From the NCBI GenBank assembly GCA_964036045.1, contig OZ038379.1:119661206-119725205 (forward strand): a DNA stretch of 64,000 nucleotides, given 5' to 3'. The translations under genes and the position numbers were made by a program. The DNA is from Eutreptiella sp. 'Long Island Sound 2002' (Eukaryota > Euglenozoa > Euglenophyceae > Eutreptiales > Eutreptiaceae). How positions within the stretch are numbered: the stretch's first letter is position 1; every line of letters starts with the position of its first letter. This document shows positions 3,440-43,217 of this stretch, one piece after another. The notes below the pieces were generated by a model. The model had not been told where the DNA came from. It searched no databases and saw nothing but the letters and a program-made list of their open reading frames with translations.

Positions 3440-3463
3440 GTACGCTGAACCTAGATGTTCACG

Positions 3464-11403: not shown

Positions 11404-11449
11404 CCTGCCGGACAGGCTACCGGACCACCGGGCCCGCGGCACCCGGAGG

Positions 11450-12650: not shown

Positions 12651-14718
12651 CCGGCGCGTCAGCCGAAGCACCCACGTCAACAACACAGACCGGATTCGAC
12701 GCCTACAGCACCCCCCCGTAGACGTCACCAGCATCACCTCGACCCATTGCATCGCCCACGGTGCCCCAGCCCAACCCACTGCGCCTTCGGCGCACACATA
12801 CCCGACACCCACACAAACCAACCACGCCCACACTGCCCACCACCCCATCAGCCCACGCCACGAACACACCCACACGCACGCCCACGCCCGGCCACGCCAC
12901 CCAGACACTAACCAGGAGCCGCAGCCACCCACGCAAGCGCCACGCCACCACTGCCGCCAACCACCCGCCGTCAGCCCCCCCCGGACCGGCGCCCTGGGAA
13001 CCGGGAGCCGACACCGGCACACACCCACACCCACGCACAGCACCCCAGCCACCCCCCCCCCCAAAAAAAAACAAAGCCAAACAAGCCAGCGAAAAGAGAG
13101 GAGTAAGGGACAGGCAGAGGAAGGGGCCACGGGGGGAGCAGAGGGCAAACACGCAAGCCCACACACGCCCCCCCCCCCCCAAGCCAACCCGACCCCGCAT
13201 GTCCCGCACCCTCCCAGGAACCGCAAAGCCCAAGACCACCCCCCAGGCACCACCACAACAGACCACCATGAGGAGCCGCCGAGGACGACACACGACACAC
13301 CGCCGCCAAACACACAGTCGACACCGACACAAGCCCCACCCCCGCAACCCGCCGCACCCACCGCTGCGGCGCCCCAACACACAATGGTGCCCCCGCGGAT
13401 GCGGTACACCCCAAAAACCCCCTTCAGCCAGCCGACCAGAGGCCACCACGGGACGCACCAAGGGGACGCCGCGGAATACCCACCCACAGAACGGCCCCGA
13501 CACCCGCTACCCGCCGGCAACCCCCCACGGACCCACCCCACACCCGAGCAAATAGCCCCCCCCCCACCGTGGAAACAATGCACCCCAGCCACACACCGCC
13601 ACTCACCACCCGCGGGCACCGCACCGGGGCCACAACACGCCCAAGCAGCCGCGACCCACCGACCCGCGGACCCCGCAAACGCAATACCCCACACCACCGG
13701 GCCCACCCAACGGCGGGCCGACACCCCCAAGCACCACACGACCACAGCCCCCTGGTTGCGACACTCCAGTCCCGCACACCCCGCCCCAGGGGACCCCAGG
13801 CCCTACGCCACACCGACCCCGCACAGGCCACGTACTGAAACACACCAGGAGAACGATCAAGAGACCACGCGGGGCTGCCCCACACCGCCAGAGAACAAAC
13901 CACAGGCGACAGCCCACCCCACCAGACCTGAACACGGTGCCCCCCCCCCCCAACGGGAAGGCCACCACACGGCACAACACCACCATACCGCACCGCACCC
14001 CCCTCCCCCACCCGGGGGCACGGGACACCACAGCCCACCAACACAGGAACCAAGCCACGCCCCGCGGACTCCGCACCCCACCCCACCGGCACCACCCCTG
14101 GAAACCCCGCACGCCTCGCGCCAGCTCAACACCCACCACCGGCCACAACCCGAACCGCACACAGGGGCAACACCACCGGCCAGGACAGCCACCAGCGTGC
14201 AGCCACACACCACAGCCACGCCAAACGGCGCGCCTTACCCGGCGCACGACCCCGCACCGGCCGCCGCACGTGCCCCGAACACCAGCATAACACGCCCACC
14301 GTGCCATGAAGCAGCACCCCAGCACGTGAACACGCACGATGACCCCATGGCCCTGGACATCGACAGCCTGCTAGAACTGGAACTCCAACACACGGAGGAC
14401 ACGGAGCATCATATGGACCTCACCCCGCCGGAGCTCGAGCCCACAGCAAGCAGCCCCGCGGACCCCAACCCGCAAAATGCCCCCCCGCGCCCCCCCCCCG
14501 CGAGAGGGCGCCCTGGACGCACCTGTCCAACGCCCTGCGGCGCCACCACCCCACCCACGAAGCCAGCAACGGGCCCGCCGAGTACCGGGCGTCACTCGAG
14601 CACGACCTGCCCGACGTCACGGGGCTGGGACTCCACGGGTACACCACCGCCCCCCCCCCTCCAGGCACCCCCACACAAGAATGGGAGGACGAGTACGCCG
14701 TCGACGTCACCGACATGA
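12475..14718 (+). CDS. Element A ORF1, Pro/Thr-rich N-terminal part
   Basis: The ATG at 12475 opens a 747-residue frame that is mostly Pro/Thr/His low complexity; the start inside it is uncertain. The last part looks truly coding: from about 14,345 it reads PMALDIDSLLELELQHTED, an acidic helical segment. Element B has a similar segment (WEDDYDVLRAIQHLL) at about 47,200 on the minus strand. After the 10-C run at 14,490-14,499 the conserved protein continues in the previous frame, so the true product switches frame there and the last 70 or so residues of this ORF are out-of-frame. Function unknown; by position it is the start of the ORF1 protein. Confidence 0.45.
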   Translation: MTSPTAPSPWTSPAAPSPPAPPVAPPPTAPLTAAAGAAGPPNARPVTYDTNNVTNPVAARRVSRSTHVNNTDRIRRLQHPPVDVTSITSTHCIAHGAPAQPTAPSAHTYPTPTQTNHAHTAHHPISPRHEHTHTHAHARPRHPDTNQEPQPPTQAPRHHCRQPPAVSPPRTGALGTGSRHRHTPTPTHSTPATPPPKKKQSQTSQRKERSKGQAEEGATGGAEGKHASPHTPPPPQANPTPHVPHPPRNRKAQDHPPGTTTTDHHEEPPRTTHDTPPPNTQSTPTQAPPPQPAAPTAAAPQHTMVPPRMRYTPKTPFSQPTRGHHGTHQGDAAEYPPTERPRHPLPAGNPPRTHPTPEQIAPPPPWKQCTPATHRHSPPAGTAPGPQHAQAAATHRPADPANAIPHTTGPTQRRADTPKHHTTTAPWLRHSSPAHPAPGDPRPYATPTPHRPRTETHQENDQETTRGCPTPPENKPQATAHPTRPEHGAPPPQREGHHTAQHHHTAPHPPPPPGGTGHHSPPTQEPSHAPRTPHPTPPAPPLETPHASRQLNTHHRPQPEPHTGATPPARTATSVQPHTTATPNGAPYPAHDPAPAAARAPNTSITRPPCHEAAPQHVNTHDDPMALDIDSLLELELQHTEDTEHHMDLTPPELEPTASSPADPNPQNAPPRPPPARGRPGRTCPTPCGATTPPTKPATGPPSTGRHSSTTCPTSRGWDSTGTPPPPPLQAPPHKNGRTSTPSTSPT

Positions 14719-17700
14719 CGGCATACATGGAAAGCGTGGAGGACCTGGAGCAAGACACCGTCCTCAGCCTCCTCGCCTACCACAGCTGGAGATGGGGCCA
14801 CCAGGTCACCCTCCACCGACCGCAGGACGGGCCCCACCAGTGGTCCCCAGAGCAAACGGCGAAGTGGGACATCGTCCTCCAACTCACCCCCGAGGGCTTC
14901 TACACCCTCACGCACAGCGGATTACCCGACGCCGCACCCAATGCACAGGCACTGCCGCTGGCCCAGCCCCAGGAGGACGACGCAGACGCACCCCCACCGG
15001 AGGAATGTCATTGGGACCCCCCCACAGCCACCACCGAACGCATGCCGCACCGGCTCACCAAACGTCACCTCCCCCACGACTACCATGCCACCAACGACTC
15101 GCGGGGACGCCGCACACTGCCCCTGCAGTGGGGATCACCCGAGGGCACCTTCACGTGGGGGGAAATCCTCCCCGGCGCCGTGGCGCTCACGTACCTGTGG
15201 CTCCGGGACGCGGAGACGCACGCGCAGCCCCCCGGCACACACCTCCTCCTCACCCTGGAGGGAGAGGCCGCCGTCGAAAACGTCCACACAGCGGAAGGAG
15301 AGGACTACGTGACGGCGAACGCAGACACCGCAGTATGGCTACACGCTCACGAGCACACCACACCCCCCACCGTAGTACCGGGGTCACACCCCTGGCACGT
15401 GGTCATCGTGCGACTGCCCACAGGAGCAGACACAGGAAGCGCCCAACAGGGATGGGCGGACAGGTGGGCACACATGTGCGCCTCCCTGCACGAAGGGCTG
15501 CACAGACCCTCCCTCACCAGTCACACCCTCGAGCCGGCCCCCACCACGGCCGAATCCCACACCGGGGCGGCCCCCCCCACAGGAGTCTGGGCCTACGCGC
15601 GCACCCTCCACCGCGAGGCAGCGGAAGCCCTCAAGACCGCCATCTCCAACCACCAGGGCCTCGTGCACACCCCCCACGATAACACACAAAAGGGCTACAC
15701 CCTATGGTGGCACCACCCCGCACCAGAAGGGGGCCTGCAACCACCGGCAGACCAGCCTGGCATCGGCCCAGACCTCACGGCGATCGCCCGCGCCGTCGCC
15801 GCCATGGCCCAGCAAGTTGGGGCGCCACCCCAATGGGCACCGTCCATCATCAAGGAAACGGCGGCACGCCACAACCCAGCTTTCGCACACTTCCGGGGAC
15901 GCCCCATTCATCCCACCCTACCGGACCTCGACCTCCCCGCCCACGATGCGTGGGCAGTCCACATCCTCGTGGCCCACGACACCGCGCCCAAAACAGGGGA
16001 GGCGACGGCACGCATCACCAAACAACTCCCCAATACCGCACTCCACTACGACATACCAACGCCCAACGTCATCGTCACCCACAACACGGGTCGCAACCAC
16101 TACTACCTCCAGGCCACGCATGAGCGCTCCCCCATCACCGTATACACCTTCACCACCTACCCTGGCCTCCAGCCACCGCAACACCACCCGCGCCCGGCAT
16201 GGAAGCATCCCCTACACGTCGCCCCGACCCGGCGCAAAAGGCCCACCCATCACGCGCCCCCTCCCGCCGACAGCACCGCCCTCCACACCGCCCGCAGACG
16301 GGCCGCGGCACAACACCAAAGCCACCTGCTCCCACGCATTAACGCTGGACCCGGCACCATCACCGAGGCCACCCACAAAAGCACCTTGAACCTACTGGCT
16401 CGCAAGCTACGCCCCAAAATGGCACTGGAGGACACGCTCTGGATATACTATGGCGAAGGCCGCACGGCACGGGTGGCGGACCTCCGCAATATCATCCCCC
16501 GCCACATCCAGCGAGCAGTAGGGCCCTTCACCGTGTACGCGGTACCGCACCCCATAACAGCCCCATGCACCCACTGCAACCCTCGGTGCGCGCTACCATG
16601 CGCAGGCGCTCTGCAGCAACCCCTGCCCACCCCTACCTACAGGGGGGGCATATACCTCGGCACGGTGCCCGGGGACCCACACCCCTACCTCCTGCCCGCA
16701 GCGGACCGCCACCACGCCATACCACTACACCTTGTCGAGCACCTGGCGGTGGGACCATCCCCCTTCCAGAAGTGCCCCCCCCACACCCCATCCGACGGAC
16801 GCCCGCCAGATGAGCCGACACACGCCACACCTGGGCTCAAACGCGCCATCGCACTCCTCACCCTAAAGGCGGAAGCCGCCATCCCCCGAGACCTGGAGGG
16901 GGAAAACCACCTCATGGTGGAAGGGCTGACGGAACATGTCCTGATCGCAGCCATGTACGCCACGGCGTCCGCATCCCGCCTCTGGGAGGACCGCCCCTCC
17001 CCACCTCTAGCCCAAGCAGCGCAGGACGCCCCCGACACGGGCCCCACCGCCGAGGACATCCACCAAATCCTCAACATGCGAGCACCCCCGAAGACCCACC
17101 CTGCGGTCCGCCTCATCCAGCTCGTCAGCTGGGACGCCATGGACGCCCCCCCGACCACCACGGAGGTCCACATCCTCAAACACCGGGACACCTGGTGGAC
17201 GGTGGAATGGGACGACCACGGCAAGGTCAGACGAGCAACAGCACACGCCCCCGACGGCGAAGTCCCGCCCCCACCACGCGGAGGAGACCGCTTGCGACTC
17301 GCCGCACGCGTCCCCGACGCCCCGGAGGCAGCCTTGGAAGCGCTGCACTACGCCCTCTACTGGGCGCAGGGGGCGCCAGAAGGCCCCCTCCCCCCGGAAC
17401 GCACCCCAGCATGGACACGCCACGCCACCCGCTACACGGCCCACATGCGCCGCCACGGGGCAGGCACGGGGCACCGGCTCCTCACCTGGCCCACATACCC
17501 GCCCGACGCCCTGCAGGAGGCCGAGGAAGTGCTTGGCCTCATGACCAAGCAAGTGTTCCAGCTGACGGACCCCGTCCCCACGTCCAAGCCCGACGTCCCA
17601 GCCGCCCGAGAACACCCCGTGTTTGCACCAGGCCACGCAGCCGTACAGCGGCCCCAGGGCGCACCTCCCCAACGGGGACAACCCGCTGCCCGGCGCCGCC

Positions 17701-18180
17701 AAGGTGCGCAGAAGGGCAAGGCCCCCACACAGGCCAAACCCGCGCCAAAGCCAAGGGCCAAGCCGAAGAGCTGGACCAAAGAGGAAGCCGCTGCCCTGTA
17801 TCCCGAATACGCCATCAACACCCGGGTGCAGCTGCCCTTCGAGTACCCCACGGCCGCGGGCCCCTCCAAGTGGATATGGGCCGCAGGGGAGGTCAAGCAC
17901 CGGTACCTCGTCACCGGGGGCCACCAGGGGTTCAAGATCCACCGCAAGTGGGACCCGGCCACCCCCAACGACAAGAAGCTGGGGCGCACCATTGAACTCT
18001 GGCGAGACCAAGCCGGTCGTGAGATGGTCCCCATGCAGCTGTGTCACCCCCGACACGGAGCACCTCACCGGCACCGAGTACACGGGCGAAGTCCACAATG
18101 CATGGGCCCTACCCCAGCCCCAGAAGCGGAACCGCAGGGCACCCGCAGCTCAGGGCGTCATCGACCTCCTCGACGCCTGA
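14500..18180 (+). pseudogene. Element A ORF1, conserved body
   Basis: The frame is open from the C run at 14,499 (first ATG 14,715) to about 18,040, then a one-base shift leads to the TGA at 18,178-18,180. It is a large mixed-charge protein with no familiar domain. Blocks shared with element B include a GVWAY...KGYTLWW region (15,590-15,710), GPFTVY followed by a Cys cluster CTHCNPRCALPC (about 16,566-16,601; CEHHDPPCSTLC in B), then YLGTVPGDP, and a basic C-terminal part with KPKSWTKEEAAALYPEY. The Cys cluster C-x2-[CH]-x3-C-x3-C could bind zinc and RNA, as ORF1 proteins of non-LTR elements do. The ATG at 14,715 overlaps the preceding TGA as ATGA, but conserved coding begins upstream of it. 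Confidence 0.55.
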
Positions 18181-18209
18181 CGGGGCCAGGGCCGGACAAG
18201 GCCCGCCCC
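18178..18209 (+). promoter_or_regulatory. Putative UGA-C readthrough site with stem-loop (element A)
   Basis: The ORF1 stop TGA (18,178-18,180) is followed by C, then GGGGC (18,182-18,186), CA, GGGCC (18,189-18,193), loop GGACAA, GGCCC (18,200-18,204) and GCCCC (18,205-18,209). That is a 10-bp GC stem with a 2-base bulge. ORF2 is in the same frame. The first in-frame ATG comes only at 18,322, after residues already conserved with element B (PAPAEA and the INIL region). Element B has the same stop, the same next base and the same two stem halves at 43,168-43,217. UGA-CGG followed by a 3' stem-loop is a known class of readthrough signal in plant RNA viruses. Activity here is inference. Confidence 0.6.
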
Positions 18210-21200
18210 CCCAACTACCAGTCCCCAGAAACCGGCGCCTGCAGAAGCCCACGCCCGCATCAACATCCTCAACGAGCCTGCGGTCACCTACGACCCCACC
18301 AAGGCCGCCACACTGCAAGCCATGCCCGGGCCGCACCCCCAAGGCGCAGACCTCCTGGGATTCCTGGAGCAAGCCCTCCGCAAAGCGGACCAACCCGAAC
18401 CAGCACCGATCCTGGACCCAGAGGGGAACAAATATCACGCCCACTGGGAACGGGGGGTACCCCTCTACCACAAGACGTCGGTCACGGTACATGCCCACCC
18501 CGACCTCGGAGTGGATGGTCGCCCCGGGGCGTACGGGTGCGTGGGGCCCGGATGGCACCTAAACGTGCCACTCACGCACGTCCCGTTCGGGGAGGAGACC
18601 AAGGACTTCCTGGACACCCTGAGCCTGGCGTACCACCGACTCTCCCTCCTGGCACCCACCATCATCATAGGCGACCTAAACGCCGCCCCCACCGACGACG
18701 ACCGCACCGGCCCACCCACAGCCACCGACACAGCTGTCAGGAACGCCATGCACCAACTGGGCATCACCGACCTCACGGCAGGACTCACCGGCACATCCTC
18801 CCATTACCCCCACCAAGCCGGCACCCACCCATCCCGCATCGACACGTGCTACGGGGACCCAACCACGGTGCGCGTCCACGAAGCAGCCTACGGGGACCTC
18901 CCGCCCACAGGCACGGGCCACCGGCCCCTCTACATCGACCTCATCATCCCCAACCTACCCCCACCCGCGGCCACCCTGCCAGACGACACCCTCCCACCCA
19001 CACTGCAGTTCCCGGCCGAGGACGACCACGGCGCCTGGCACAGGTATAACAGGGCCCTACACGCCATCCTACGCCGCCTGGGTGCACCGACACTCACCAC
19101 CGCCATGCGCCGGGCGGCACAAGCATGCGGCATGGAGCGTGACACCAACCACACGGGAGCACCACCAGACCTCAGCCTCCAGCAACTCGTCCATGACATC
19201 TGGACCACGAAAGGGGAACTCGCCACCGTGCTACGCCCCAGCACACCGGAGGCACGAGACCGGGACGCCCACCTCCGTGCGCTCCTCACCACCCGCCGCC
19301 ACCAACTCCAGGAATGGCACGCCCACCGCATAGCGGCAGCAGCCCAGGAACGCGAAAGATACGGCAGAAACGACACGCCGTACAAGTCCGTACGGTACGT
19401 CAGCCGCATCCTGGAGGACACGGGGCGCCGTACCATCCACGCGGTACACACCCCCGAAGGAGGCCTCACCGATGACCCCGACGCCGTCCTCCAGGCAGTC
19501 CTGGACAGCTTCCAGGCACAACACGGGGACGCCCTCCCCGAGCTCGACCCCCACACCAGAAACACCATCCGCGAGCATGTGCCCAGGGTCTTCAACCGGG
19601 AACAGCGGCGCGCCATCGAACACGACCCCTTCAGCATCTCAGAACTGCAACGCGCCCTAGACCGCCTGAAGAAGGGGGTCGTGCCCGGCGTCGACGGTTT
19701 GCCGGCCGAAGCGTACCAACGTCTCACCCTGCCCATCAAACGCCGCCTGGCAGCCGGCCTGTGGGACATCGTCACGGGCGCCACGCCCATCCCCCCTGAG
19801 TGGGCCAACCTGGTCCACCCCCTCTACAAAAAGGGGGACTGGGCGCAGCCGGGGAACTGGCGGCCCATAGTCTGCGCCACCACCGAGGTCAAGCTGGTGT
19901 GGACGCTCATCCTAGGCCGCATCGCGCCAGCGGTCTTCGCCCACGTGCCCGCCAGCATGTGGGGGGCCATGGCCGGCAGGTCCCCCCACGAGGCCATCTT
20001 CCTCCAGGACACCGCACTGGACATGAACCCCTACGAGATGATCATCGCCTCCCTCGATGTCCCAGGCGCGTTCCCCCACGTCCCACACCGGCTCCTCACG
20101 GAGGTATGGGATGCCATGGGCCTCCCATTCCTATCCTTCATGACCGGGTACATCCAGACCCGACTCTACGCCGTCATCACGGCCGCGGGCCTCACCCCCT
20201 GGACCGGCACAGACAGCGGGGTCCCCCAGGGAGGCGCCGAAGGCCCCTTCCTCTACCTCCTCGTCACCCTGCCACTGGCATTCGAGCTAGCACGGGTATA
20301 CCTGGGGTACGCCCCATACCCGCTACGGTCCCCCCTCATCAACTTCGCAGATGACAACCTCCTCACTACGGCCACCCGCCACCGCGACCCTGAGAACGCA
20401 GGGCTACCAACAACCACCGAACAAGCGTCCGCCATTCTCCAACTCACCACAACCTACCTGGACGCCCACCAGCTCCTAGTGCACCCCCGCAAATCGGTCG
20501 GGCTGGCCGACGCCAAGACCCCCACCCCCCACATCCGGAAAGGCGAACCCCTACACCTGGAAGACACCACAGTCCACCTGGGAGTCACACAGGCCACGCA
20601 GCACCACCACATCACACTCCCAAGCAAGCTAGAAGAGCGCCTCGCCCGGCTACCCCAAATTGCCAGGGGGGACCTCCTGTCTACGCAGGGCCTGGCGTAC
20701 TTCATGGAAGCAGTGCTCAACGCGGCCATCGGGTACCAAGCCCTGCACCTCCCGCGCCCCCAAAGACGCACTACGCCACGCTCGACAGCAAGTGACGAAG
20801 GCATGGGCGCAACACGGAGGCTGGCCCACGTCTTTCCCCAAGGAGGCCATGATGGCCCACTGGCGCTACTACGGAGACAATACGGGCGCCCTGGTCGACA
20901 TGGCCTATGCCAAACACGCAGCACACCTCCTACACAGGGTAACACACCACCACCAACCAGAAGTTCGCGAGGCGGCAGCCATACGCATAAAAGAAGCGCA
21001 AATGGCCCGCAACACCTTTCCCCGGTGGATACTGGCACAACACGGCGTCTCCACCCCCGTGGGCACTGGCATCTGGGCCCAGCTACAACTTCTCCTACCG
21101 CACCACACACACGCCATCCTGACAAACCACCACTGCGATCAACAGGGGCCACTCGTGGCCACACACACCGACATCCACCGACGCCCGGCAGGCGAGGTGG

Positions 21201-23494
21201 ACACCCTGCGCCTCGTAGGGGCCACCATCACCATAGTGTATATCACCCCAACACAGATGAAGATCATGGCCCAATGCGACGCCCACCACGCCTCGTTCCT
21301 TTCCGACCCACAATGGCCAGGGCGCCACGTCTTCCAAGCGTACCTCCGCGCATGTGCTACGAAGGCAGGGCGCGACATGCCGGGGCCCAAGGACATCAAC
21401 ACGGCGTACACAGCCTTCCAGCGCCAGCACCCCCGGCCCCGCCTGAGCGAGCACGAGACCCCCAACGACGGCGGCACGACGCAGGGGGAGCCCACCCCGT
21501 CAGCCGAAGGCTGGACACCACCCACCATCCTGCTACTAGCACCAAACGGCCACAAATATGCTACCCGCACCGTCCAGCGACACCATGCCCCCTGGTCCAT
21601 CCCCAAACACAATGCACCGGAGACCGATGTACCACCAGTCAGACACAGTGACCAGGGCATACCACGCACGTGCTGGCACTGCGGCCCGGCAGCCCTCGAC
21701 ACTCCGTGGCCCCTGCTGCACCTCATCTCCACCCACTACCTCACCCCCACCGCCGCCGCCACCGCCGACCAGCAGGCATGGCTCTCCCCCTAGTTTCACA
21801 CGGTACCCCCAGACCACCCGGTGCACGTAGCCTGGACCCGGACACCCACGGCGACATGGACGTTCACCAACGAGCGGGCAGACCCGGACGGCGTAGCCAT
21901 GGAGTACGACTGCTGCGACCCACACCGCGCAGGACCTCAGGAGGCACCCATGCGCCCCCTACAGCACAAATGCCCCACCCTCCGCAACGACAAAGACGAC
22001 AAGGAGCGGCGACAGACCATCACGTGCCAGAAGTTCCACCCCAATACGGGATACCTCTTCCACCTGATGTACGTGTATATCATTCAGGGACGCCCAGACA
22101 GGGGCCTCCTCCGCCTCACCCCACGAGCCCAGGCCATCATCACCCAGGGAATAGGCGTCTATGCAGCGCCACTACTGCAACCCACGCAAATCACCGCCAG
22201 AACCACCCAGGGGAACCCCATCTACGTCTATCACCCCACAGCAATCGCCCGCCTACCCATACCCAGCGACACCGATATCATCTACTTCACTGACGCATCC
22301 GGCACCCAGCAACGCACCCCCAGGGTCGGTTGCGCCTCCGTGCGCATCACTTGGCACGCGGACGGCCTCCACGTGGAACACCACACCGGGACCACCATCT
22401 TTGGAGCGTCCTCCCACGGCAAACTGCGCACCATGGCAGACGCCGTCACCGCCACACCGCCACCCACGACGGTCCGGCCCCGCAACATCTGGGTAGTCGT
22501 GGACGCCACGGTCGACAGGCGCCTTGCGGACCTGCCCCTCCACAAAGCACTCGAGTCCGGCCTCACCACACAAGCGTTGGGACTATGGATGGCCTTCAAG
22601 GGCATGCACCCCCAGGACGCCCTACACATCATCAAGCAGGAGTCACACCGCTACGCATACGGCAATGGACGCGCAGACACGCCGGCCAAACACCAGAACA
22701 CCAACCACACTCCAGGGCTCCAACGCGTGCGACTGGACACCCCACACCACAGCCACCTGCAGCACCTGCCCCCGATACCCCTGGCCACACAGCCCCCCCA
22801 ATGGATGCCCGAGAACACGCCGTACACGGATCGAGACAAGCAGTACCACTACCCCACACCCATCGGGCAACTGGCCACCACACTGGGCCACCCAGGGATC
22901 ACCGAACTCCTCCGACGCCTCGAAGACTCCGTCCACACCCCCCTCTACTACTCCGCCCTGCGCCCGGATAGCCTCCCAGCACACCTACAAAAGCCCCGAC
23001 TCCAACTCGCCCTCGAACAACTTCCCCTCCTCACCCGATACCACCGATGGTATACGCGCCGCTCGATCCACGTCCCCGCAGGACACACCAAATGCATCTG
23101 CAGCCACGCGGAAGAAGAAACATGGGACCACTTCAAGGCGTGCCCCCTGTACAGAGGACTGGACACCCTCACAGACTGGAACCCAACCCACACCATCGCA
23201 CAGCACGCCGGATGGCTGGCGCAGTCCCCGGCGACCCAGCAACTCACCACCGTCCTCAAGCAGACGGAGGTGCTCGAGGCAGTCCGCAGGGGACTCGTCC
23301 CCACTGCCGTCTACACCTTACTACGCACCGACGCGGAGGACCCCCAGGCCACGGCGGCGCACATGCAGCGGACGGCCGTTGCCAAGACGGCGGAGCAGCT
23401 CACATACCGCACCCACAAATACCTGCAGCATGCGGCAACCCTGCCCCCAACAGACCAAGCCCACCTCCTCAAACTCCTGTTCTACCAACCATGA
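18181..23494 (+). pseudogene. Element A ORF2: AP-endonuclease, RT, RNase H, zinc motif
   Basis: This polyprotein would nick target DNA and copy the element RNA. The APE-type endonuclease is at about 18,230-18,960, with GDLNAAP (18,670), SRID (18,832) and GHRPL (18,915). The reverse transcriptase spans about 19,640-20,760: SLDVPGAF at 20,050 (motif A Asp), GVPQGGAEGPF at 20,218 and FADDN at 20,344 (catalytic Asp pair). A conserved connection follows. RNase H lies at 22,270-22,700: TDASG, VVVDATVD and GNGRADTPAK are kept, but the Glu expected in SSHGELxxM is Lys. A C-terminal CICSHAEEETWDHFKACP zinc motif is at 23,093. Frame breaks: a one-base loss at a C run near 20,757, and TAG 21,791-21,793 where element B has Trp. 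The start is unclear; it may be made by readthrough from ORF1. Confidence 0.85.
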
Positions 23495-26400
23495 GAACCT
23501 ACCCCGTGACATACAAACACCGAACCCCCACCACGTCTACACACCGTCTACCGAGCACAGCACTGGCACAGCACACACGGGCGCCACAGGCACCGCACAC
23601 GCTCCCACCAGCATGCGCGTGCCACCAGCCCCCATCCCCCCACGCCGCCGTCCGTCCACAGGTACCACCAACCACCAGCCACCGCATGTCCCCTCTGCGT
23701 TCGCCAGCGGCTACCACAGACAGCCCTGCCCTGCAACCCAGACCACTGGGTCTGCCTGAGAACCGCGCACCGCCTCACCCACTGCCCCCACTGCGGGGAC
23801 CTCAACCCCCGCCACCGCGAACGGCCCGCGGCCCCAGCCGCACCCCCCCCCGCCAGCCACCCCAGCTTCTTCGGGTACCTCACCGACACTCTCCGGGACC
23901 AACTGGGAGGGTACTACGTGGCGGACGCGGCGGACCACGCATGGGCCATAGCCGTGGCCGCGGGCAACACACCCCTGCCCCCCCACAGCCCACCCCTACA
24001 CAACAGCGGAGGCGGCTTGAACGTGGCAGCCCGCCACATCCTCCTCGCCCTATACCTCCACCACCGAGACCTACACCTCCCGGACCCACAACTCCCGGCC
24101 CCCCAAGCAGCAGCCCTGACGCCGGAAGCGTGGGCCGACACGGCACCAGAGGAGATAGCAGCCTACCTCCGAACCACGTGCCGCCGGTTCACAAACGCCC
24201 TCGGCCGACGGAAGGGAACACCTTACCCCCTCAGCGCACTCCTCTACCCAGCACACCACCCCCACCCCGCACAACAGACGCCCCCGGAGGGCTGGGCGTC
24301 TTTTCGGGACGCCCACCTGGCCGCCCCCGACGAGGCCACCGCCACGCGGATGGGCCTCACGGACCAGGAGGCCTACGTCAGAGGCCTCAAGACGAGCCTC
24401 CAAGAGGCACACCGCTGGCACGCCCGCTCCCCGTCGCCCCCACGGGGACAGGGGGGTTCACCCGCCCCCGACACCCACCAGGCCAAGAAGACCAAGACAG
24501 GTCAGGGGGCCCGCCAACGCGCCAGCCAGCAGGGCGCGACGCCCCGACCAAGGCCCGGGTCCAGCCACACCGCACCGCCCCACGCCAAGACTCCCGGGGC
24601 GCACCAACAACACCACCACCACCAACGCCCACCACCACCACCATACCGCAGCACCCAAACCCTGCAGCCCAGTCAGCCACCACCGCCCACACACGTCCAC
24701 ACCATGCCAGGACCACCGTACGCGCAGAGCCAGAGGACATGGCACCACCAACACCACCACCGCGCTTCCGTCCCTCCCAACCCCTACCCCCTAATGCCCC
24801 CAAGCTACAGCGACCCCCACCAGCTACACCCCCACCACGCCCCAGCACAACCAGGCCCCGCGAACCACCCACCCCACATAGCGCACATCACGGCACCACA
24901 CCATCACGTGTTCCACCAACACCAGCCCCTGCCACCACACCCACCAACGCCGGGGTACCACACAAAACCGGCACACCCTCCACACCACCACCACGCGGTC
25001 CAGCACCACCCGCCGCCCCCGCTACACAAGCCCGCGACATACGAGCCACGGTACACCCCCATGGACCCGCGAGGAGCCGCGCACGCACACCAGCAACACC
25101 AGGGCCTAGTAGGAGCGCCCCACCACCACCAACAGCCCCCCCACCCACACCCCATACCAGCGAGCACCATCCACCAGCAGCCACCCATCATATACGGACC
25201 ACAGCCCCACCCGGGGGCTCATGCGGTCGCCTCCCACCCGCACCCCGGCACCGCAACCAGTCAAGAACCGCAAGGGCCACACGGCGCACACACGCAACAC
25301 CCACACGACCCACAGGGACGCCCGGACCCCCAGCCGGCACAACACCCACCCCCGCCCCCCCCACCCCACCACCACCAGCAGCCCCCCCACCCACACCCCA
25401 TACCAGCGAGCACCATCCACCAGCAGCCACCCATTACATACGGACCACAGCCCCACCCGGACGCTCATGCGGCCGCCTCCCACCCACACCCCGGCACCAC
25501 AACCAGTCAAGAACCGCAAGGGCCACACGGCGCACAGACGCAACACCCACACGACCCACAGGGACGCCCAGACCCCCAGCCAGCACAACACCCACCCCCG
25601 CCCCCCCTACCACCAACAGCGCCACCCCCGCACCACCCCCCCCCGCCCCCCCCCCGAGACCAGGCCACGGACACAACACGCGGCAGCCAGCACCAGCCAA
25701 TTGACGTCGATACCCCCGCCGACACACGCCACCGCGAATCCCCCCTCCCGCGACCGCCACAAGAGACCCCATCACCGGACCCCACGCGCGACAACGACGA
25801 CCACCCCCCCCAACCCACACCACCCCCCCCATCACACCCCGCACCACCAGACGCCGCACCGGCCAAACCCTACGCCCTACACAACCCCGCAGCGGTACGG
25901 CAGCACCTCCGGGGACTCGGGGAACAGGACGTCGTCCTGTACCTCCGCACCTCCGGCACCAGCACCCCCATCCGGGCGGCCACCCTGGTCCAGGCGGCCA
26001 CCCTGGGGGAAGGCGTCAGAGACTTCCTCTTCGACGCCTTCCTCCACGTCGCCCGACACGAGCGCCCCCCACGCGCCACCCCAGACGGCGAGAGCCCGCC
26101 CCCCACGGGGAGCCGGATCTGGGTGCCCCCCATCGACTGGGGGCGACACCTGGTCGGACACCCCGTGCCGGAGCGGGACAGCACCCAGGGCCGCACCCGC
26201 TACCGCGAGCCCAACATGGCCCACCCCCCACCCGACGCCACCCCCGACAGCACCAAAGAGTGGGAGCGGGAAACATGGGTAGCCCGGATGGCCTCCCTAA
26301 GCAACTTCCGGCACCACGTCCCGGGGGACATCCCCACCCCCGACGAGCAGCAGCCAGCCCCCTCCACGTACATGACCCTCATGTACAATCTGCACTACAC

Positions 26401-28384
26401 CCTCTCCACCACCACCTACAACGCACCCACAGACCACTGGGTGGTACACGGCACCGACTCCCTCCTCCCCGCCGACTACACCCCCCCCACACACAACCCA
26501 GGCCCCGACACGTACGCCAGGGGGGACGACCCGGACGACCCCCACATCTGGGGCACGTGGGAACCCGAATCCCTGGACACGCTGCTCTCCATCCGCAGCG
26601 GCTGCCAGGGCCTTGGTAGGGCAATGTATTGCCTCGCCAAGTGGACCCAACGGACCTGGGGGATCCCCACGGACCGATGGGTGTGGGTGGTCACGCTGCG
26701 CCCCCAGCAGAGGGAAGCCCCCCGAAACCGCGAGGGACCCACCCCCCCACGCCCCACCACCCCACAACTATGCCCGTACATGGTGGCAGCCCGCCTCATG
26801 GCGCTGCTATGGCCGGCCCCCCCCACACCCCAACCCAAAACTACCCCCACCTCACAGAGGAGGACATGCCCGGCATCCAGCGATGCTTCTTCCGGACCCT
26901 CGACTACCTCCAGCAAACACACCCCCACGTCCTGGAGCAGAGATGGCCACCCCCCGGGTAACCCACGTGCCCGCGCAGCCGGGACAACGCCGCCACGCCA
27001 GCACCAGCACGCACGGATCACCACGGAAAAAGCGCGCACACGCCCGATGCCCGAACCTGCATCCGTTCTCGCTACTTACAGGACCCAGCATCATACGCCC
27101 GCCCCCGAGGCCCGGGACCCTCCGCCGTCTCCCGCGGCCCTCTCCTCCGCCTGCGACTCCACAACCTCCACCACCACGACAGCCTCATCCACCACCACCA
27201 CCACGTCCTCGTCCGGCACTCCACCCCCCAGGCCGCGGGGGACACCTCCCAAACGGTCCTCCAAACCCGCCCCCACCGCGAGCAGCCCTGCCGCCGCCAA
27301 AGCCAACGCCCCGGCGAAGCCCACGCCCACGACCCAGCCGAAGCCCAAGACCGCCGCCAAACGGCGACCCGCAGCAAAGCCCAAACCCAAGCCCAAACCC
27401 GGCGCCACGACGGCAGCGCGAGCCCGGCCCCCCGAGGATGTCCTCTACGACATCCGGCCCCAGCCGTCCCAGGCCCGAAGGCAGCAGCGCTCAGCGCGGC
27501 GCCCCCCCACCGTCACCGACGCCACCGCCACCACCTTCATGGCGCAGCGCGCCGCGGCCGAAGCGCAACGCGCCTCGTCCTACCACCTCCCAAAGCCCGC
27601 ACCCCAGGCCCACGGACCGCCGCCGACCAAGCCGGAACAACGCCAGGGTCCACCAGAAGCGCCCCCGCCCCCCTACCGGCCCCCGATGACAGCCCACATG
27701 CAACGCATGCCCCACTACCGCCGCCGCCGCGAATCCCCGCCCAACCCCGAGGCGGAGACCGTACGCGCCCACCCGCGGGTCCACATCCGCGTGCACCCCC
27801 ACTCCCCACGCACCCCCACGGAACAGGACTACGAGGAATCCCCCAGGCCCGCCACCGCCGCCGGTCCCCACGACCCCGTCACACCCACCCACGCCCACTC
27901 CTCCGCCCAGGACCGCAGGCCCGCCCAGGAACAGTGGTGGCAGCGCTGGACCCACACGCAGCTCTGGGAGCTGCGGAAGTGGGCCCGGGGAGAGCCCTCC
28001 CTCGAGGGCCTGGTCCATCGGTCCCGCAAGGGGTCGGCCGAGAACTGCCGCCTCCGGCCGGCGGGGGGGTGGATGCCGCAGGCCGCATGTAAAGCCATGC
28101 TGGCCGATGCGCTCCACCCCCTGGGAGTCCACCCCCGCAACCTCCCCGCGCCCCAGGACCACCCGTACGTCCTCAGGCGCCTGCGGGAGACCCTCCAGGA
28201 AGCGCGGCGAGACGGCATCCGCCTGTGGGACATCACCCAAAGCCCAGCCCCGCACGCACACACCCCCTCACCACCCCACAAGCGTCGGCGCACCGACACC
28301 GGCAACACCCACAGCACCCCAGGAGCCCTGCGCGCCACACAACACGACGCGCCAGACCCCCCGGCCAGCGGCGCCGCCATCTAA
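23491..28384 (+). pseudogene. Element A ORF3: RING-like finger, His/Pro repeats, unknown globular domains
   Basis: A third long coding region follows RT/RNase H, which LINE elements rarely have. The supported frame is open from about 23,510 to TAA 28,382-28,384 but lacks an early ATG. An ATG at 23,491 overlaps the ORF2 TGA (ATGA) in a different frame, so a frameshift near 23,640 is likely. At 23,687-23,795 the frame reads CPLC, then 11 residues, CNPDHWVC, then THCPHC: C-x2-C, C-x3-H-x2-C and C-x2-C, a RING- or B-box-like zinc site. A globular part follows (to about 24,250), then His/Pro/Gln-rich sequence with an 82-residue tandem duplication, and another globular part (25,870-26,800, with GSRIWVPPIDWG and HIWGTWEPESL). 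After Lys/Ala/Pro-rich linkers comes a Trp-rich end (QWWQRWTHTQLWELRKW). Compensating frame changes near 26,810 and 26,960-27,040 suggest decay. Function unknown. Confidence 0.55.
25122..25610 (+). repeat. 246-bp tandem duplication inside ORF3
   Basis: Two copies of a 246-bp segment lie head to tail (GCCCCCCCACCCACACCCCA starts at 25,135 and again at 25,381). Each encodes 82 residues rich in His, Pro and Gln, containing PIPASTIHQQPPI. The length is a multiple of three, so the frame is kept; the copies differ at only a few positions and look recent. Confidence 0.9.
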
Positions 28385-29760: not shown

Positions 29761-29774
29761 CGCGCACCGCACAC

Positions 29775-34249: not shown

Positions 34250-35748
34250 TTAGTGGACTTCTGGGTCATGCAGGGCATGGTAATGGATGAAATGCATGTG
34301 TTCCCTGGCGCCGGGGTCGATGAGTTGTTCCGTGTGTGTCAACAGGAGGTGTTTGCGGTGTACCATTTGGGCCGCTGCTCTGCGGAATGCTTCTAGCTTG
34401 AGGTGCGCTGCTGCCTCTGTCGGGTTTACGGTGTATTTGGTGAGGTGTCGGTGTAGGGCCTGTGTTGCCTCCCCTCTCATAGTGGCTTCCTTGAACAGCG
34501 GACCGCTGAAGATGTGTTTGGTGGCCTGGTGTGCGCGGCCGTTGGTTGGCCAGCCTTCGTGTTGCTGTAGGGTTCCTGCCGGGGACCAGCCCACTAGCTT
34601 GTCCCTGCCCGTATGGAGGGGGCACATCTTGAAGTGTTGCCAGTCCTCCGGGGTGGTGTGGTCGCACGGGCAGCGGGTGTGTTCTTCCGGGACGTGGATG
34701 TGCTTGCGGGCGAGCCATCAGGCGACCCTGGTGAGGAGTGGTAGTTGCTTTCTGAGGAGCTGGATGCGTCGTTTCTGGAGGTGGGCTGGGACGTTCGCTG
34801 GGCGTAGTGCCGAGTGGTAGAGGGGGAGTGTCAGTTTCTCCTGGAGTTCTTGGATGTGCGCTCGGCTGTCTGTGTTGCCGAGCACGCGGTCGAGATGTTG
34901 GATGGGGTTGGGGTAATGGTATGATCTGTCGTGTGAGGTATAGGCGGCGTCCTCCGGTACCCAGTCCGGGGTCCGATGGGGTTCCCGTTTGGGGGGTATG
35001 TGTTGGAGGTGTGTGTGGTCTTGGCCGAGGCTTGGCACCTGGAGGGTCGGCAGGTGCGTTGTGCGCTATTGTACTGACTGGATGTCGACCTTACCTTTTC
35101 CGTATTGGTGCCTGTGGGATTCTTGTTTCACGATGTGAAGTTGGACGTAGGGCGGAAGGCTGCGGAGGGCTTTCCAGAGTAGCAGTGCTTGGGTGCTGAG
35201 GCTCGTCGCGGTGGCTTTGCGGAGTGGTGGTCTTGCTATGCCGAGGAGTAGGTGTGTGTCGACAGTGGCGTCCACTACGAGCCAGACCCGGACAACGTGC
35301 GGGAGGTGGGCGGGTAGGTGGGTCGCAATTTCGGTGATGGGGCCGGCCATGGCCCCCAGTTCCCCGTGGGAGGAGGTCCCGTAGGTGGTGTGGCCTGTGT
35401 GGCGGTCCATGTGGTAGTGTTCCCCGGTGTGGGTCAGTTGCAGGGTGGCCCCCCCGGTGATGGGCGTGAGGGCGCATTTGCCTGAGGCGTCGGTGAAGAA
35501 GAGTAGGTCCGCCGGTTATGGTTGTGGGAGGCAGCATGGGTTCATGGGCAGGTAGGCGTATATGGCGAGGACCGTGGTGAGGTGGGTCCCCGGGGTGGTG
35601 GGCTGCAGGATGGGGATGGCGTACACCCCTATTTCTTTGGAGATGATGTGTTTCGCTCCGGGGGACATTGCTATGAGTCCCTGTTCTGGCTGTCCTTGTG
35701 TGAGGTAGGAGTAGATGTAGTGGAGGATGCAGGCGGTGTCCGGGTTAA
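34250..35748 (-). pseudogene. Element B ORF2 C-terminal part: RNase H and zinc motif
   Basis: The frame runs without a shift from 35,748 to 34,250 but has three stops: TAA 35,516-35,518, TAG 35,066-35,068 and TGA 34,718-34,720. RNase H residues are well kept: FFTDASG directly after the TAA, SSHGELGAM with the catalytic Glu, LVVDATVD and IVKQESHRHQYGKGKVD. The zinc motif CPCDHTTPEDWQHFKMCP lies near 34,640-34,675. All three stops can be explained by single C-to-T changes on the coding strand (CAA, CAG, CGA). The block before it (35,749-36,390) is duplicated at 39,371-40,012. Confidence 0.8.
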
Positions 35749-36390
35749 GGTCGCGGCATTTGAGGCTTGCTGTTCGGTGTTTCCGTGTGTGGCAGGAGTG
35801 GTGGAGCGGATAGTAGGGGTGCTCGTGCTTGCCTGTTCTGTCTGGTTCGTACATGCTGTAACGAATCGCGATTCCTGCTGGGTCGGGGCGGGGCCAGGTG
35901 GGCGTTTTGGTGAACAGCCATTGGGGTTTGTGGTCGGAGTCCCACGCCACCGTGGGGTTCACATCGGCGCGGTGGAACCATGGGGCTACCCATGCGTAGG
36001 CTTGTGGTGGTAGGTGGGCTGTGGGGTGGGTGTGGTGGTGTGTTTTGAGGTGCAATACGAGCCATGGTGTGGTGGGTGCTTCGGGGTCACGAGCCCAACA
36101 TGTGCGTGGCATTCTCTGGGAGTCCTGGGGGACCTTCAGCAGGTCTCGGCCGGTCATGTGGTGCTTCGGTATGCGCCATTTTGCCCCCTGGTTAATGACG
36201 GTGGTCTGCGTGCGTTTGGCTTCGTTCGGGGCCAGTAGTAGGGTTAGCGGTGGGACCCAAACCGTCACCGGGGGGCCGGGTTCGTGTTCCGAGCCGTTTG
36301 GTGCGTAGGGTGGTGTCGCTGCGATGGGACAGGGGTGCTGCTTCTCGAAGTCCCGGTAGGCTGCCTTCGTCTCTTTGCTTCTCGGCAGAG
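35749..36390. repeat. 642-bp direct duplication, copy 1
   Basis: This block equals 39,371-40,012 except for about three single-base differences. It codes (minus strand) for part of ORF2 between RT and RNase H, including TLPRSKETKAAYRDFEKQHP and WVAPWFHRADVNPTVAWD. It flanks the 36,391-39,370 insert, like an extremely long target-site duplication. Confidence 0.95.
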
Positions 36391-39370
36391 GTAGGTAGGT
36401 AGGTGCACTCGGTCGTGGAGAGGCGCCCCATGGTTCCCCCTGGCGTCGCCCCTGTGACGAACAGGAAGAGGCTCCGCGCGTGAAGAGGGGAGGCGGCTTA
36501 CATCCCGCTAGACCTGACTGTTGGCCCCCAACAAAGCGGCCCCGGGCTACACCGGGAGGGCTGATCGCCGCCAGCGTGACGTGCTTGTCTCGCCGGGAGG
36601 GTGGGCCCCCGTGCTTGCGCACGTCCCCTCCTTTGGGCGGAACCCTAGGGGTTCACCGGACTTCCTGGCGTATCCCGTTCCCAAGGCATGCATGCATGTT
36701 CTTGGTACTAGGGTTCCGAGGCGCTTGGGTGTCGCACGCTCCGCCTCGAGTCCCAAAGCAGCGCAGGCCTTAGGATGCAGGCTTACCCCCGGGCTCCGGA
36801 TCTCGTTTGGCCGGGTCACCTGCATGGCACGGGCTGCCTCAGTGCCCGGGCTGTGGGCACTGGGTTTCCTACTGTTGGCTTGCGTTTGTGGTTGGGTCCG
36901 GGTTGCGGTTGGTCGTGGGTTTTGTTTGCCCCTGCCCGTTGTGGCTGGGGTCTTGGGTGGGTGTGTTTGGGCTCGGTTTGTGGTGTTGTCCCTCTTTTGC
37001 CGGCTGTTTGTGGTGTTCGTGGTTGGGCCTTGGTGTCGGCCTGCTTTCGGGACCTGTGTGGTTTCGTGCGCGTTTCCCTTGCCCCCGCCGTTTCCGGTTC
37101 CGGTGTGCGGTGTGGGCGTGCGTGCTGGGCCCGGGTCTCGGCTGTGCCCCGCCCTTGTTGGCTTGGTTGTCGGGTTGTGTTTTTTGCGCTTTTTTGTTTT
37201 TTTTTTTTTTTCTCCCGTTGCTGGGTGTCCTTGTCCTGGGCCTTGTGGTCTCTCCCCCCGTCTCCTTTCTTTCGGGCTGGGCTGCTTGCTTCTTTTTTTT
37301 TTTTTTTCTGCTTGTTTTGGTGCCCCTTTTCCCGCTGGGCCGCTGTTCCTGGCTTGGTGTTGCCGGTTTTGGCTGGGTGGTCCCCCTGCGCCTGTTTGGG
37401 GGTCCTGTCTTCGGTGCCTTCTGGGTGGGGGGTTTGGCCCCCTTGTGTGTTTTTGGCGGGCGGTGTGGTGGCTGTGGGCTGTTTCGCGCAGCCCCCGCCC
37501 CCCCCTTTTTGTTTTTTTTTTTTTTTTTTTTTTGGGGGGGGGGATGGGGGGGGGCCGCCTGGCTGTTCCTCCCTTTGCCTTCCCTCGGCTGGCGCTTGCT
37601 CTGTGGCTGGTGTGTGGTGTGGTTGGTCCCTCGCCACTCCTGGCGGAGGTTCCCGTGTGCTACTCCCCGCCACTCCTGGCTGGGTTTCGCTGCCGGTGGT
37701 GGTGGGCGGTCCCCGCCACTCCTGGCTGGGGTCTGCCGGCGGCGGTGGTGTGTGGTGTGTGGCGTTGGTGTGTTGGTGGGGTTGTGGCTGTTGTGTGGTG
37801 TGGTTGGTCCCTCGCCACTCCTGGCGGAGGTTCCTATGTGCTACTCCCCGCCACTCCTGGCTGGGTTTCGCTGCCGCTGGTGGTGGGCGGTCCCCGCCGA
37901 TCCTGGCTGGGGTCTTGCGGCGGTGGTGTGTGGTGTGTGGTGTGTGGCGGTGGTGTGTTGGTGGGGTTGCGGCTGGTGTGTGGTGTGGTTGGTCCCTCGC
38001 CACTCCTGGCGGAGGTTCCTGTGTGCTACTCCCCGCCACTCCTGGCTGGGTTTCGCTGCCGCTGGTGGTGGGCGGTCCCCGCCACTCCTGGCTGGGGTCC
38101 GCTTGCGGCGGTGGTGTGTGGTGTGTGGCGGTGGTGTGTTGTTGGGGTTGTGGCTGTTGTGTGGTGTGGTTGGTCCCTCGCCACTCCTGGCGGAGGTTCC
38201 TGTGTGCTACTCCCCGCCACTCCTGGCTGGGTTTCGCTGCCGCTGGTGGTGGGCGGTCCCCGCCACTCCTGGCTGGGGTCTTGCGGCGGTGGTGTGTGGT
38301 GTGTGGTGTGTGGCGGTGGTGTGTTGGTGGGGTTGTGGCTGGTGTGTGGTGTGGTTGGTCCCTCGCCACTCCTGGCGGAGGTTCCTGTGTGCTACTCCCC
38401 GCCACTCCTGGCTGGGTTTCGCTGCCGCTGGTGGTGGGCGGTCCCCGCCACTCCTGGCTGGGGTCTTGCGGCGGTGGTGTGTGGTGTGTGGTGTGTGGCG
38501 GTGGTGTGTTGGTGGGGTTGTGGCTGGTGTGTGGTGTGGTTGGTCCCTCGCCACTCCTGGCGGAGGTTCCTGTGTGCTACTCCCCGCCACTCCTGGCTGG
38601 GTTTCGCTGCCGCTGGTGGTGGGCGGTCCCCGCCACTCCTGGCTGGGGTCCGCTGGCGGCGTCGGTGTGTGGTGTGTGGCGGTGGTGTGTTGTTGGGGTT
38701 GTGGCTGGTGTGTGGTGTGGTTGGTCCCTCGCCACTCCTGGCGGAGGTCCCTGTGTGCTACTCCCCGCCACTCCTGGCTGGGTTTCGCTGCCGCTGGTGG
38801 TGGGCGGTCCCCGCCACTCCTGGCTGGGGACCGTTGGCGGCGGGGGTGTGTGGTGTGTGGTGTGTTGTTGGGGTCCCTCGCCACTCCTGGCGGAGGTTCC
38901 TGTGTGCTACTCCCCGCCACTCCTGGCTGGGTTTCGCTGCCGCTGGTGGTGGGCGGTCCCCGCCACTCCTGGCTGGGGTCCGCTGGCGGCGGTGGTGTGC
39001 GTGCTTTGCTTGGCTGGGTTGGGCTGCTTTGTCTTTCTGCTTTGCTTGGCCCCCTCCGGGTTGGGGTTGCCCCTCTCTCTTTCGCTGCTGTTGCCGTTCC
39101 TCGTTGGCTGGGGTTTGCGGTGTGTGGGTTGGCTGTTGCCTGGCACCTGTTCGTGTGCCCTGGTTCGTTGCGTGTTGTGCGTGCTCTCCGGGTTTGTGGC
39201 ACCCGGCGGCCGTCGCTGCTTGGCACCTGTCCGTGTGCCTTGGTTGTGGCCGGCGGCGTGCCTCTCTGGCGTGCCTCGTGGCCCCGCGTGGTGCGCCGCG
39301 CCTCGTCCGGTCCGGTCGCTCTCGGTGCTCCGGTCGGCTTTCCCGACGCCGTGGTGCCTTTCCCCACCCC
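36391..39370. mobile_element. 2,980-bp repeat-rich insert in element B
   Basis: The insert lies between the 642-bp duplicates and disrupts ORF2. On the minus strand it begins GGGGTGGGGAAAGGCACC and ends with a short CTAC repeat (CACCTACCTACCTAC), reminiscent of the simple-repeat tail of some non-LTR insertions. It contains G/T-rich sequence, T runs of 16-25 (near 37,200, 37,290 and 37,510), a G10 run and the 183-bp array. No protein domain is found; long frames in all readings reflect composition. It may be a non-autonomous relative of the large elements. Confidence 0.5.
37600..39000. repeat. 183-bp tandem array with three hairpins per unit
   Basis: Eight units start with GGTCCCTCGCCACTCCTGGC near 37,624, 37,806, 37,990, 38,171, 38,358, 38,543, 38,725 and 38,872 (spacing 181-187 bp, the last interval 147). 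Each unit has one CTCGCCACTCCTGGCGGAG and two CCCGCCACTCCTGGCTGGG hairpins, the latter pair separated by TTTCGCTGCCG and GGTGGTGGGCGG, then a variable GT-rich spacer. Long open frames across it are composition artefacts. Confidence 0.95.
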
Positions 39371-40012
39371 GGTCGCGGCATTTGAGGCTTGCTGTTCGGT
39401 GTTTCCGTGTGTGGCAGGAGTGGTGGAGCGGATAGTAGGGGTGCTCGTGCTTGCCTGTTCTGTCTGGTTCGTACATGCTGTAACGGATCGCGATTCCTGC
39501 TGGGTCGGGGCGGGGCCAGGTGGGCGTTTTGGTGAACAGCCATTGGGGTTTGTGGTCGGAGTCCCACGCCACCGTGGGGTTCACATCGGCGCGGTGGAAC
39601 CATGGGGCTACCCATGCGTAGGCTTGTGGTGGTAGGTGGGCTGTGGGGTGGGTGTGGTGGTGTGTTTTGAGGTGCAATACGAGCCATGGTGTGGTTGGTG
39701 CTTCGGGGTCACGAGCCCAACATGTGCGTGGCATTCTCTGGGAGTCCTGGGGGACCTTCAGCAGGTCTCGGCCGGTCATGTGGTGCTTCGGTATGCGCCA
39801 TTTTGCCCCCTGGTTAATGACGGTGGTCTGCGTGCGTTTGGCTTCGTTCGGGGCCAGTAGTAGGGTTAGCGGTGGGACCCAAACCGTCACCGGGGGGCCG
39901 GGTTCGTGTTCCGAGCCGTTTGGTGCGTAGGGTGGTGTCGCTGCGATGGGACAGGGGTGCTGCTTTTCGAAGTCCCGGTAGGCTGCCTTCGTCTCTTTGC
40001 TTCTCGGCAGAG
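39371..40012. repeat. 642-bp direct duplication, copy 2
   Basis: Near-identical to 35,749-36,390 at an offset of exactly 3,622 bp. This copy is joined to the upstream part of ORF2 on its high-coordinate side. Confidence 0.95.
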
Positions 40013-43000: not shown

Positions 43001-43214
43001 TTTCTGGAGGGTCGTCGCGTTGTAGGCCTTGTTCCTGGAAGGTGAGGAGGTGGGGAACCCACTCCGCCCCCTGTGCCATCAGGAGCTCCTGGAGGGCAGC
43101 TGTGGCGTCCTTGGAGTATGTGATGGCCGCGTGGTTGAGGTCGAGAAGGTTGACGGTGGCCTCGGTCGGGGCGGGCCGGGGCTGTGGAGGCTTGCGCCCT
43201 GGGCCCTTGCCCCG
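39371..43214 (-). pseudogene. Element B ORF2 N-terminal part: AP-endonuclease and RT
   Basis: The endonuclease lies at about 43,160-42,396: GDMNAAP near 42,730, PSRIDVCYGNP near 42,565 and GHSPL near 42,480. An in-frame TAA (42,393-42,395) separates it from RT, which shows PVYDGLPAEAYY near 41,690, SLDVKGAF near 41,350, GVSQGRAEGPF near 41,175 and FADDT near 41,050. The connection then follows, with ASIGFQALHL and AWAAHGGWPTS. Frameshifts: a missing base near 41,425, another near 41,325, and an indel in a C5 run near 40,092. Residues at the active sites are intact, so the damage is to reading frame only. The protein lines up with element A over its full length. Confidence 0.8.
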
Positions 43215-43217
43215 TCA
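43168..43217 (-). promoter_or_regulatory. Putative UGA-C readthrough site with stem-loop (element B)
   Basis: On the minus strand TGA (43,217-43,215) is followed by C, GGGGC (43,213-43,209), AA, GGGCC (43,206-43,202), a 24-base loop, GGCCC (43,177-43,173) and GCCCC (43,172-43,168). The stem halves, the bulge position and the base after the stop match those at 18,178-18,209, while the loop differs in length. The TGA is in the frame of the endonuclease. Downstream residues RGKG...PAPTEA are similar to those after the stop in element A, and the first in-frame ATG is only at 43,079. Confidence 0.6.

Follow-up and report, generated by a model that had tools for sequence, protein, structure and literature searches.

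Candidate programmed UGA readthrough between ORF1 and ORF2 in three families of LINEs from Eutreptiella

Two related elements in a 64,000-nucleotide (nt) stretch of the genome of Eutreptiella sp. 'Long Island Sound 2002' (assembly GCA_964036045.1, contig OZ038379.1, positions 119,661,206 to 119,725,205; hereafter the window) raise the question of how ribosomes reach the second open reading frame (ORF) of a retrotransposon when it lies in frame behind the UGA that ends the first and offers no AUG close by. Element A lies on the plus strand and carries ORF1 (from at least 14347), ORF2 and ORF3; the related element B lies on the minus strand and is interrupted between ~36.4 and 39.4 kb. ORF2 joins an apurinic/apyrimidinic (AP)-like endonuclease (PF03372) to a downstream reverse transcriptase (PF00078), as in APE-type long interspersed elements (LINEs), and the endonuclease model fits the endonucleases of L1, TRAS1 and R1Bm. 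With this endonuclease and reverse transcriptase, the elements of A, B and a third family, C, are LINEs, that is, non-LTR (long terminal repeat) retrotransposons. We consider it probable, at roughly 0.83, that programmed readthrough of the UGA yields an ORF1-ORF2 fusion in all three families.

A and B denote the families of the two window copies, and C was found among other genome copies. The 75 ORF2-related protein matches comprised families of 33, 20 and 19 plus three unrelated singles, and the ORF2 of family C is 46-52 % identical to those of A and B. All copies come from one genome (2.28 Gb assembly, contigs up to 201 Mb); copy counts refer to samples of genome copies and family-level tests were run on majority sequences. 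The family A sample holds 55 copies: 34 with a match starting at residue 1, 20 matches to the junction of copy L024, and the window copy. For family B, 30 copies were picked from 40 listed matches by DNA similarity to the B junction, a choice that favours that junction, and for family C 20 of 49 listed copies were fetched, of which 19 could be aligned. Some sampled copies are near-duplicates (e.g. L044 and L047), which makes the counts partly dependent on one another.

A TGA stands at the end of ORF1 in 54 of the 55 family A copies (33/34 in the ORF2-match set), in 29/30 of family B and in all 19 alignable copies of family C; the remaining A copy has TGG and the remaining B copy GGA. The codon after it is CGG in 53/55 A copies and 27/30 B copies, the other three B copies (L044, L047, L057) having TGG, and in family C it is CTA in 18/19 and CCA in 1/19. 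The original prediction had placed ORF2 in the frame of the TGA, and this holds in the majority sequences of A, B and C. ORF1, judged by a conserved motif, shares this frame in 32/34 A and 24/30 B copies. Both ORFs are open across the fetched range (299 and 199+ codons), with this UGA alone between them, in 14 of the 34 A copies. As read from these copies, the UGA at the junction is the family state in A, B and C and not a mark of decay. Family B seemingly splits into subfamilies by loop codon (RGRK versus RGHK after the stop).

The two window copies are both decayed, and copy B has UGAs where A has Trp. Most of ORF1 is out of the TGA frame in both because of private length changes and is in that frame in the family majorities; immediately before the stop, copy A and another copy differ in length by one base. 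The ORF1 of copy A starts with MALDIDSLL, the same as the start of protein P0077, and the 1234-amino-acid (aa) ORF1 protein P0076, from a cluster of 377 sequences, aligns to it at 14514-18050 and 18031-18177 and ends at the UGA site. A frameshift private to copy A breaks its ORF2 near 20,760, and a TAG stands in it at 21791-21793.

Type II readthrough is defined by two stop contexts, UGA-CGG and UGA-CUA, and a structure often lies ~8 nt downstream, according to passages of PMC3542737; an extract of PMC11166343 puts readthrough structures 6-12 nt after the stop. The features of this type recur here: a UGA at the leaky-stop position, CGG or CUA as the next codon, and conserved coding sequence in frame downstream.

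In A and B a stem-loop follows the stop. In copy A the TGA and a C (18181) are followed by GGGGC, CA, GGGCC, the loop GGACAA, GGCCC and GCCCC, and in copy B by the same four stem blocks with AA between the first two and a 24-nt loop in place of the 6-nt one. Both copies are predicted to fold as originally described (-21.8 kcal/mol over 40 nt for A, -30.5 kcal/mol over 60 nt for B). With G-U counted as a pair, 47/55 A and 24/30 B copies keep both 5-bp helices complete. A sixth inner-helix pair occurs in 51/55 A and 27/30 B copies and is absent in window copy A. A spacer of one base between stop and stem had seemed short for readthrough; the relevant spacer appears to be the one to the inner helix (GGGCC:GGCCC), which begins 8 nt after the UGA, 2 nt inside the outer helix, and since this is the usual viral spacing the concern is eased. 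With the stop in the A site, the outer helix would already be open and the inner one would sit at the ribosome entry channel.

To estimate how often such a structure arises by chance, we scanned for two perfect 5-bp arms separated by at most 2 nt around a loop of 3-30 nt. The scan found 3 such positions in 9,094 nt of A and a single one in 8,300 nt of B, which is the stem at the stop. Where A and B share an Arg, Gly, Pro or Ala residue elsewhere, they use the same codon in 12 of 26 cases; by inspection, with the 3' arms assumed to match, they do so at all six such residues whose codon has its third base in an arm. Five of 200 dinucleotide shuffles of the 40-nt A stretch fold at least as well as the natural sequence. 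Synonymous resamples of the majority sequence were at least as stable in 1.8 % (11 codons) and 6.7 % (16 codons) for A and in 1.25 % (16 codons) and 2.1 % (20 codons) for B. That the stem sits at the stop in both families, whose synonymous divergence is high, is a stronger part of this evidence than the folding energy.

The codons behind the stop bear on where ORF2 begins. The first in-frame ATG is codon 48 in A, 46 in B and 28 in C; endonuclease strand 1 and the conserved Asn (residue 31) lie ahead of every in-frame AUG in A and B. The predicted ORF2 fold of A, in which the first Met is residue 48, matches the human L1 endonuclease from residue 23. Between A and B the codons before the first ATG have diverged with a nonsynonymous rate (dN) of 0.55 and a synonymous rate (dS) of 1.38 (43 codons; dN/dS 0.40), a ratio resembling that of the codons after the ATG. 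This divergence suggests purifying selection before the first Met, in agreement with the claim that the residues right after the stop are translated. Within family A the linker substitutions lean to third positions (29 versus 15 and 20), counts that we did not use as evidence because the 34 copies were chosen by ORF2 protein score.

The alternative that survives best is termination-reinitiation, which we regard as unlikely: after ending ORF1, ribosomes would stay on the RNA and, with the help of the hairpin, begin again at a non-AUG codon close to the stop, in the way of SART1 or mammalian L1. Reinitiation has been described for SART1 and proposed for L1 (passages of PMC5972666), and here the hairpin sits right at the stop. 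The SART1 restart AUG, however, overlaps the stop (UAAUG), whereas no in-frame AUG overlaps or adjoins the ORF1 stop in A, B or C. Up to the end of strand 1, each family has its in-frame near-cognate codons at other positions (ATC at 27 and 29 in A, AAG at 3 and 8 in B, ACG at 15 in C), and no in-frame start or near-cognate position is common to all three. Moreover, all three families have ORF2 in the frame of ORF1 and a type II stop context, and reinitiation depends on neither.

That translation of ORF2 begins only with the first ATG in its frame (position 18322 in copy A), through a separate RNA, an internal ribosome entry site (IRES) or long-range reinitiation with the preceding codons untranslated, is very unlikely. 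The database ORF2 proteins P0001 (family A, cluster of 469) and P0026 (family B, cluster of 758) do begin there, and a C product that started at its ATG, which lies inside strand 1, could retain most of the fold, so for C alone an AUG start could serve. In A and B, however, such a start would delete strand 1 and Asn31, it would leave the conservation of the upstream codons unaccounted for, and the ATG positions differ among the three families. A conserved ATG of its own for ORF2, which the original prediction had named as an outcome that would undo it, was thus not found for A and B.

A sense codon at the site in intact relatives would have been equally damaging. Among 7,985 candidates scored in the 1,155-3,675 aa range we found no ORF1-ORF2 fusion with an in-frame sense codon at the site (three proteins found); P0005 and P0077 cross the junction in another frame. 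The TGG of copy L024 looks private, because of 39 listed other matches to its junction 20 were fetched and all 20 carry TGA. It is very unlikely that the stop is removed or recoded globally, by splicing, RNA editing, selenocysteine or a nuclear code in which UGA is Trp. The TGG copy and the stops at several Trp positions of the window copies would fit such recoding, the latter being also expected from decay, but the standard code, with TGG for Trp, leaves the window ORF2 open over 1,156 codons, there are unbroken relatives 1,234-1,737 aa long, and recoding gives no reason for the UGA-CGG and UGA-CUA contexts to recur. That a chance nonsense mutation in dead copies interrupts what is truly one sense-coded ORF has a negligible chance, since despite the decay of both window copies UGA is the majority state in all three families and stands in the 14 otherwise open A copies, and no in-frame sense-coded fusion was found.

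Under programmed readthrough, unbroken members would carry an ORF1 of ~1,230 aa or more, closed by a UGA whose context is leaky, with ORF2 following in frame; in A and B, ORF2 would have no start codon upstream of the endonuclease core. The majority of ribosomes would stop at the UGA and release the ORF1 protein. A minority would decode the UGA as an amino acid, aided by the following CGG or CUA and, in A and B, by the GC hairpin, whose inner helix would lie at the leading edge of the ribosome. The product would be an ORF1-ORF2 fusion near 3,000 aa. The fusion proposed in the original prediction is favoured by the UGA and its contexts in the three families. A wider scheme, in which ORF2 is made solely as this fusion and a second event of bypass or readthrough gives access to the ORF3 of family A, is doubtful.

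Several observations weigh against readthrough or against parts of it. Recent common descent accounts in part for the constancy of the UGA within a family, one A copy (TGG) and one B copy (GGA) lack it, and a shorter protein, P0003, reads the ORF1 tail into ORF2 with Trp at the stop site, its junction letters matching those of L024. The dN/dS test covers 43 codons of two families at high dS on majority sequences, and the strand-1 part alone gives dN 0.59 and dS 1.21 over 19 codons. The position of the start codon in C deserves weight. So do the weaker shuffle results: 16/200 shuffles of the 60-nt B stretch, and 21/200 (A) and 20/200 (B) for 120-nt stretches, are at least as stable, and under synonymous resampling one other of 25 A windows, at z -3.11, lies below the stem window, at z -2.37. 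Given the shuffles, the resamples and this other window, folding energy alone is modest evidence for the predicted stem. The outer helix, 1 nt after the UGA, would be open while the stop is read, owing to the geometry of the ribosome. Collecting more family members had been proposed as a check; stop conservation and dN/dS below 1 across the junction came out as expected, and stem covariation across A and B did not, because the two keep the same arm letters. Absence of stem pairing had been named in the original prediction as a further refuting outcome; A and B keep the pairing, and family C has no significant stem (z +0.32; synonymous-resample z -0.04 to 0.63). Finally, a predicted readthrough site in the LTR element Tca2 was not confirmed by a reporter test, according to part of PMC7175516.

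The closest likeness is to type II viral readthrough in furo-, tobra- and pecluviruses, alphaviruses and coltivirus segment 9, which share the UGA followed by CGG or CUA, the structure ~8 nt downstream (predicted in A and B) and a downstream part that encodes a polymerase or extends the protein ahead of it. They differ from our case in that the host here is a LINE, the hairpin is compact rather than extended, the outer helix lies 1 nt after the stop, family C has no clear structure, and readthrough is deduced here from sequence. The gammaretroviral gag-pol junction of murine leukaemia virus (MLV, type III) likewise has a reverse transcriptase as extension of the upstream protein and an 8-nt spacer to the structure, but uses UAG and a pseudoknot where these non-LTR elements have UGA and a hairpin. 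SART1 and mammalian L1 share the order of ORF1 and ORF2 on one RNA, and SART1 needs a downstream RNA structure; in contrast to the elements studied here, where ORF2 is in frame with no in-frame AUG near the stop, they restart at an AUG, overlapping the stop in SART1 and after a 63-nt spacer in L1. The 2A (StopGo) sequence of L1Tc (PMC5972666, in part) and the gag frameshifting of HeT-A (PMC5009743, in part) are also non-standard translation in LINE-type elements, by mechanisms that differ and are not stop readthrough. We found no precedent for readthrough or stop codons of this kind in non-LTR elements among the papers listed from the open-licence literature, covered mostly at title and abstract level and including portions of PMC2861651, PMC2734521 and PMC1965478. 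Readthrough is established in RNA viruses and retroviruses, and the families described here would be a first report for LINEs as far as this search goes.

Table 1. Positions of the proposed readthrough site and associated features in the window
Feature	Position	Strand	Remarks
ORF1 of copy A, protein with no Pfam match	14347..18177	+	broken by private frame changes
UGA stop of ORF1, proposed leaky	18178..18180	+	end of P0076; TGA in 54/55 A copies
CGG codon after stop, type II readthrough context	18181..18183	+	CGG in 53/55 A, 27/30 B copies
Outer helix GGGGC (18182-18186):GCCCC (18205-18209)	18182..18209	+	5/5 pairs (G-U allowed) in 51/55 A copies
Inner helix GGGCC (18189-18193):GGCCC (18200-18204)	18189..18204	+	5/5 pairs (G-U allowed) in 51/55 A copies
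47 ORF2 codons before first in-frame ATG (18322): linker, endonuclease strand 1, conserved Asn (residue 31)	18181..18321	+	
ORF2: AP-type endonuclease, reverse transcriptase, C-terminal region	18181..23494	+	Pfam PF03372, PF00078; P0001 aligns in two pieces
ORF3 behind ORF2, family A; zinc-ribbon-like start (by eye)	23510..28384	+	
UGA stop of ORF1, copy B	43215..43217	-	TGA in 29/30 B copies
Stem of copy B: GGGGC-AA-GGGCC, 24-nt loop, GGCCC-GCCCC	43168..43213	-	all 10 pairs (G-U allowed) in 24/30 B copies
ORF2 of copy B, several pieces, interrupted ~36.4-39.4 kb	34253..43214	-	tblastn of P0026
ORF1 of copy B, decayed, several frames	43218..46471	-	tblastn of P0076 between 46471 and 43921

A Pfam search of ORF1, of the C-terminal part of ORF2 and of ORF3 gave no match above the curated cut-off, and RNase H-like motifs seen by eye near the ORF2 C-terminus were set aside for want of Pfam support. 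A scan of viral contigs with ORF2 found no relative in a set that may leave out records of the source genome. A protein search with the reverse transcriptase profile of A, B and C returned 250 matches, and of the 120 listed 119 are 'ena' contigs and 1 is from JGI. Scans of the window for tRNA genes and Rfam families found nothing.

At the other end of ORF2, 40 of 1281 candidate genome matches were scored, and every one runs across the junction with ORF3 at 99-100 %. The family A ORF2 ends at a UGA overlapping an ATG (ATGA; window 23485-23520), and the large ORF3, which has no ATG near its start, follows in the frame of ORF2 after two UGAs. Entry into ORF3 through the ATGA was rejected, as that ATG opens another frame, and an indel that would join it to the zinc-ribbon stretch is absent in 7 other copies (L113-L119); the one-base insertion of L113 lies further on.

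The coding strand of both elements is C/A-rich and G/T-poor over many kb (11400-30000 on the plus strand, 34000-47400 on the minus strand), an asymmetry that leaves several frames open at once. Upstream of element A lies a tandem array of ~57 copies of a 65-bp repeat (6896-10535), and ~2.7 copies of a seemingly related 65-bp unit lie at 29780-29955, just past the A-rich stretch behind ORF3 (29669-29711). Tandem repeats of ~185 and ~149 bp occupy 37602-38999, inside the region that interrupts the ORF2 of copy B. Fragments resembling gag, protease and reverse transcriptase of LTR retrotransposons were seen by eye at 475-3463 (minus strand) and 49024-54706 (plus strand), the former presumably akin to dinoflagellate elements.

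How LINEs produce ORF2 from an RNA with two ORFs is an old question, to which the answers described in the literature covered here are reinitiation, frameshifting and 2A peptides. If readthrough does operate in these elements, the ratio of ORF1 to ORF2 would be under a simple cis signal, and the reverse transcriptase would be tethered to the ORF1 protein in the manner of Gag-Pol. Between them, the three families offer both natural contexts and cases that have a hairpin or lack one, and would provide a comparison set for UGA-CGG and UGA-CUA in this host.
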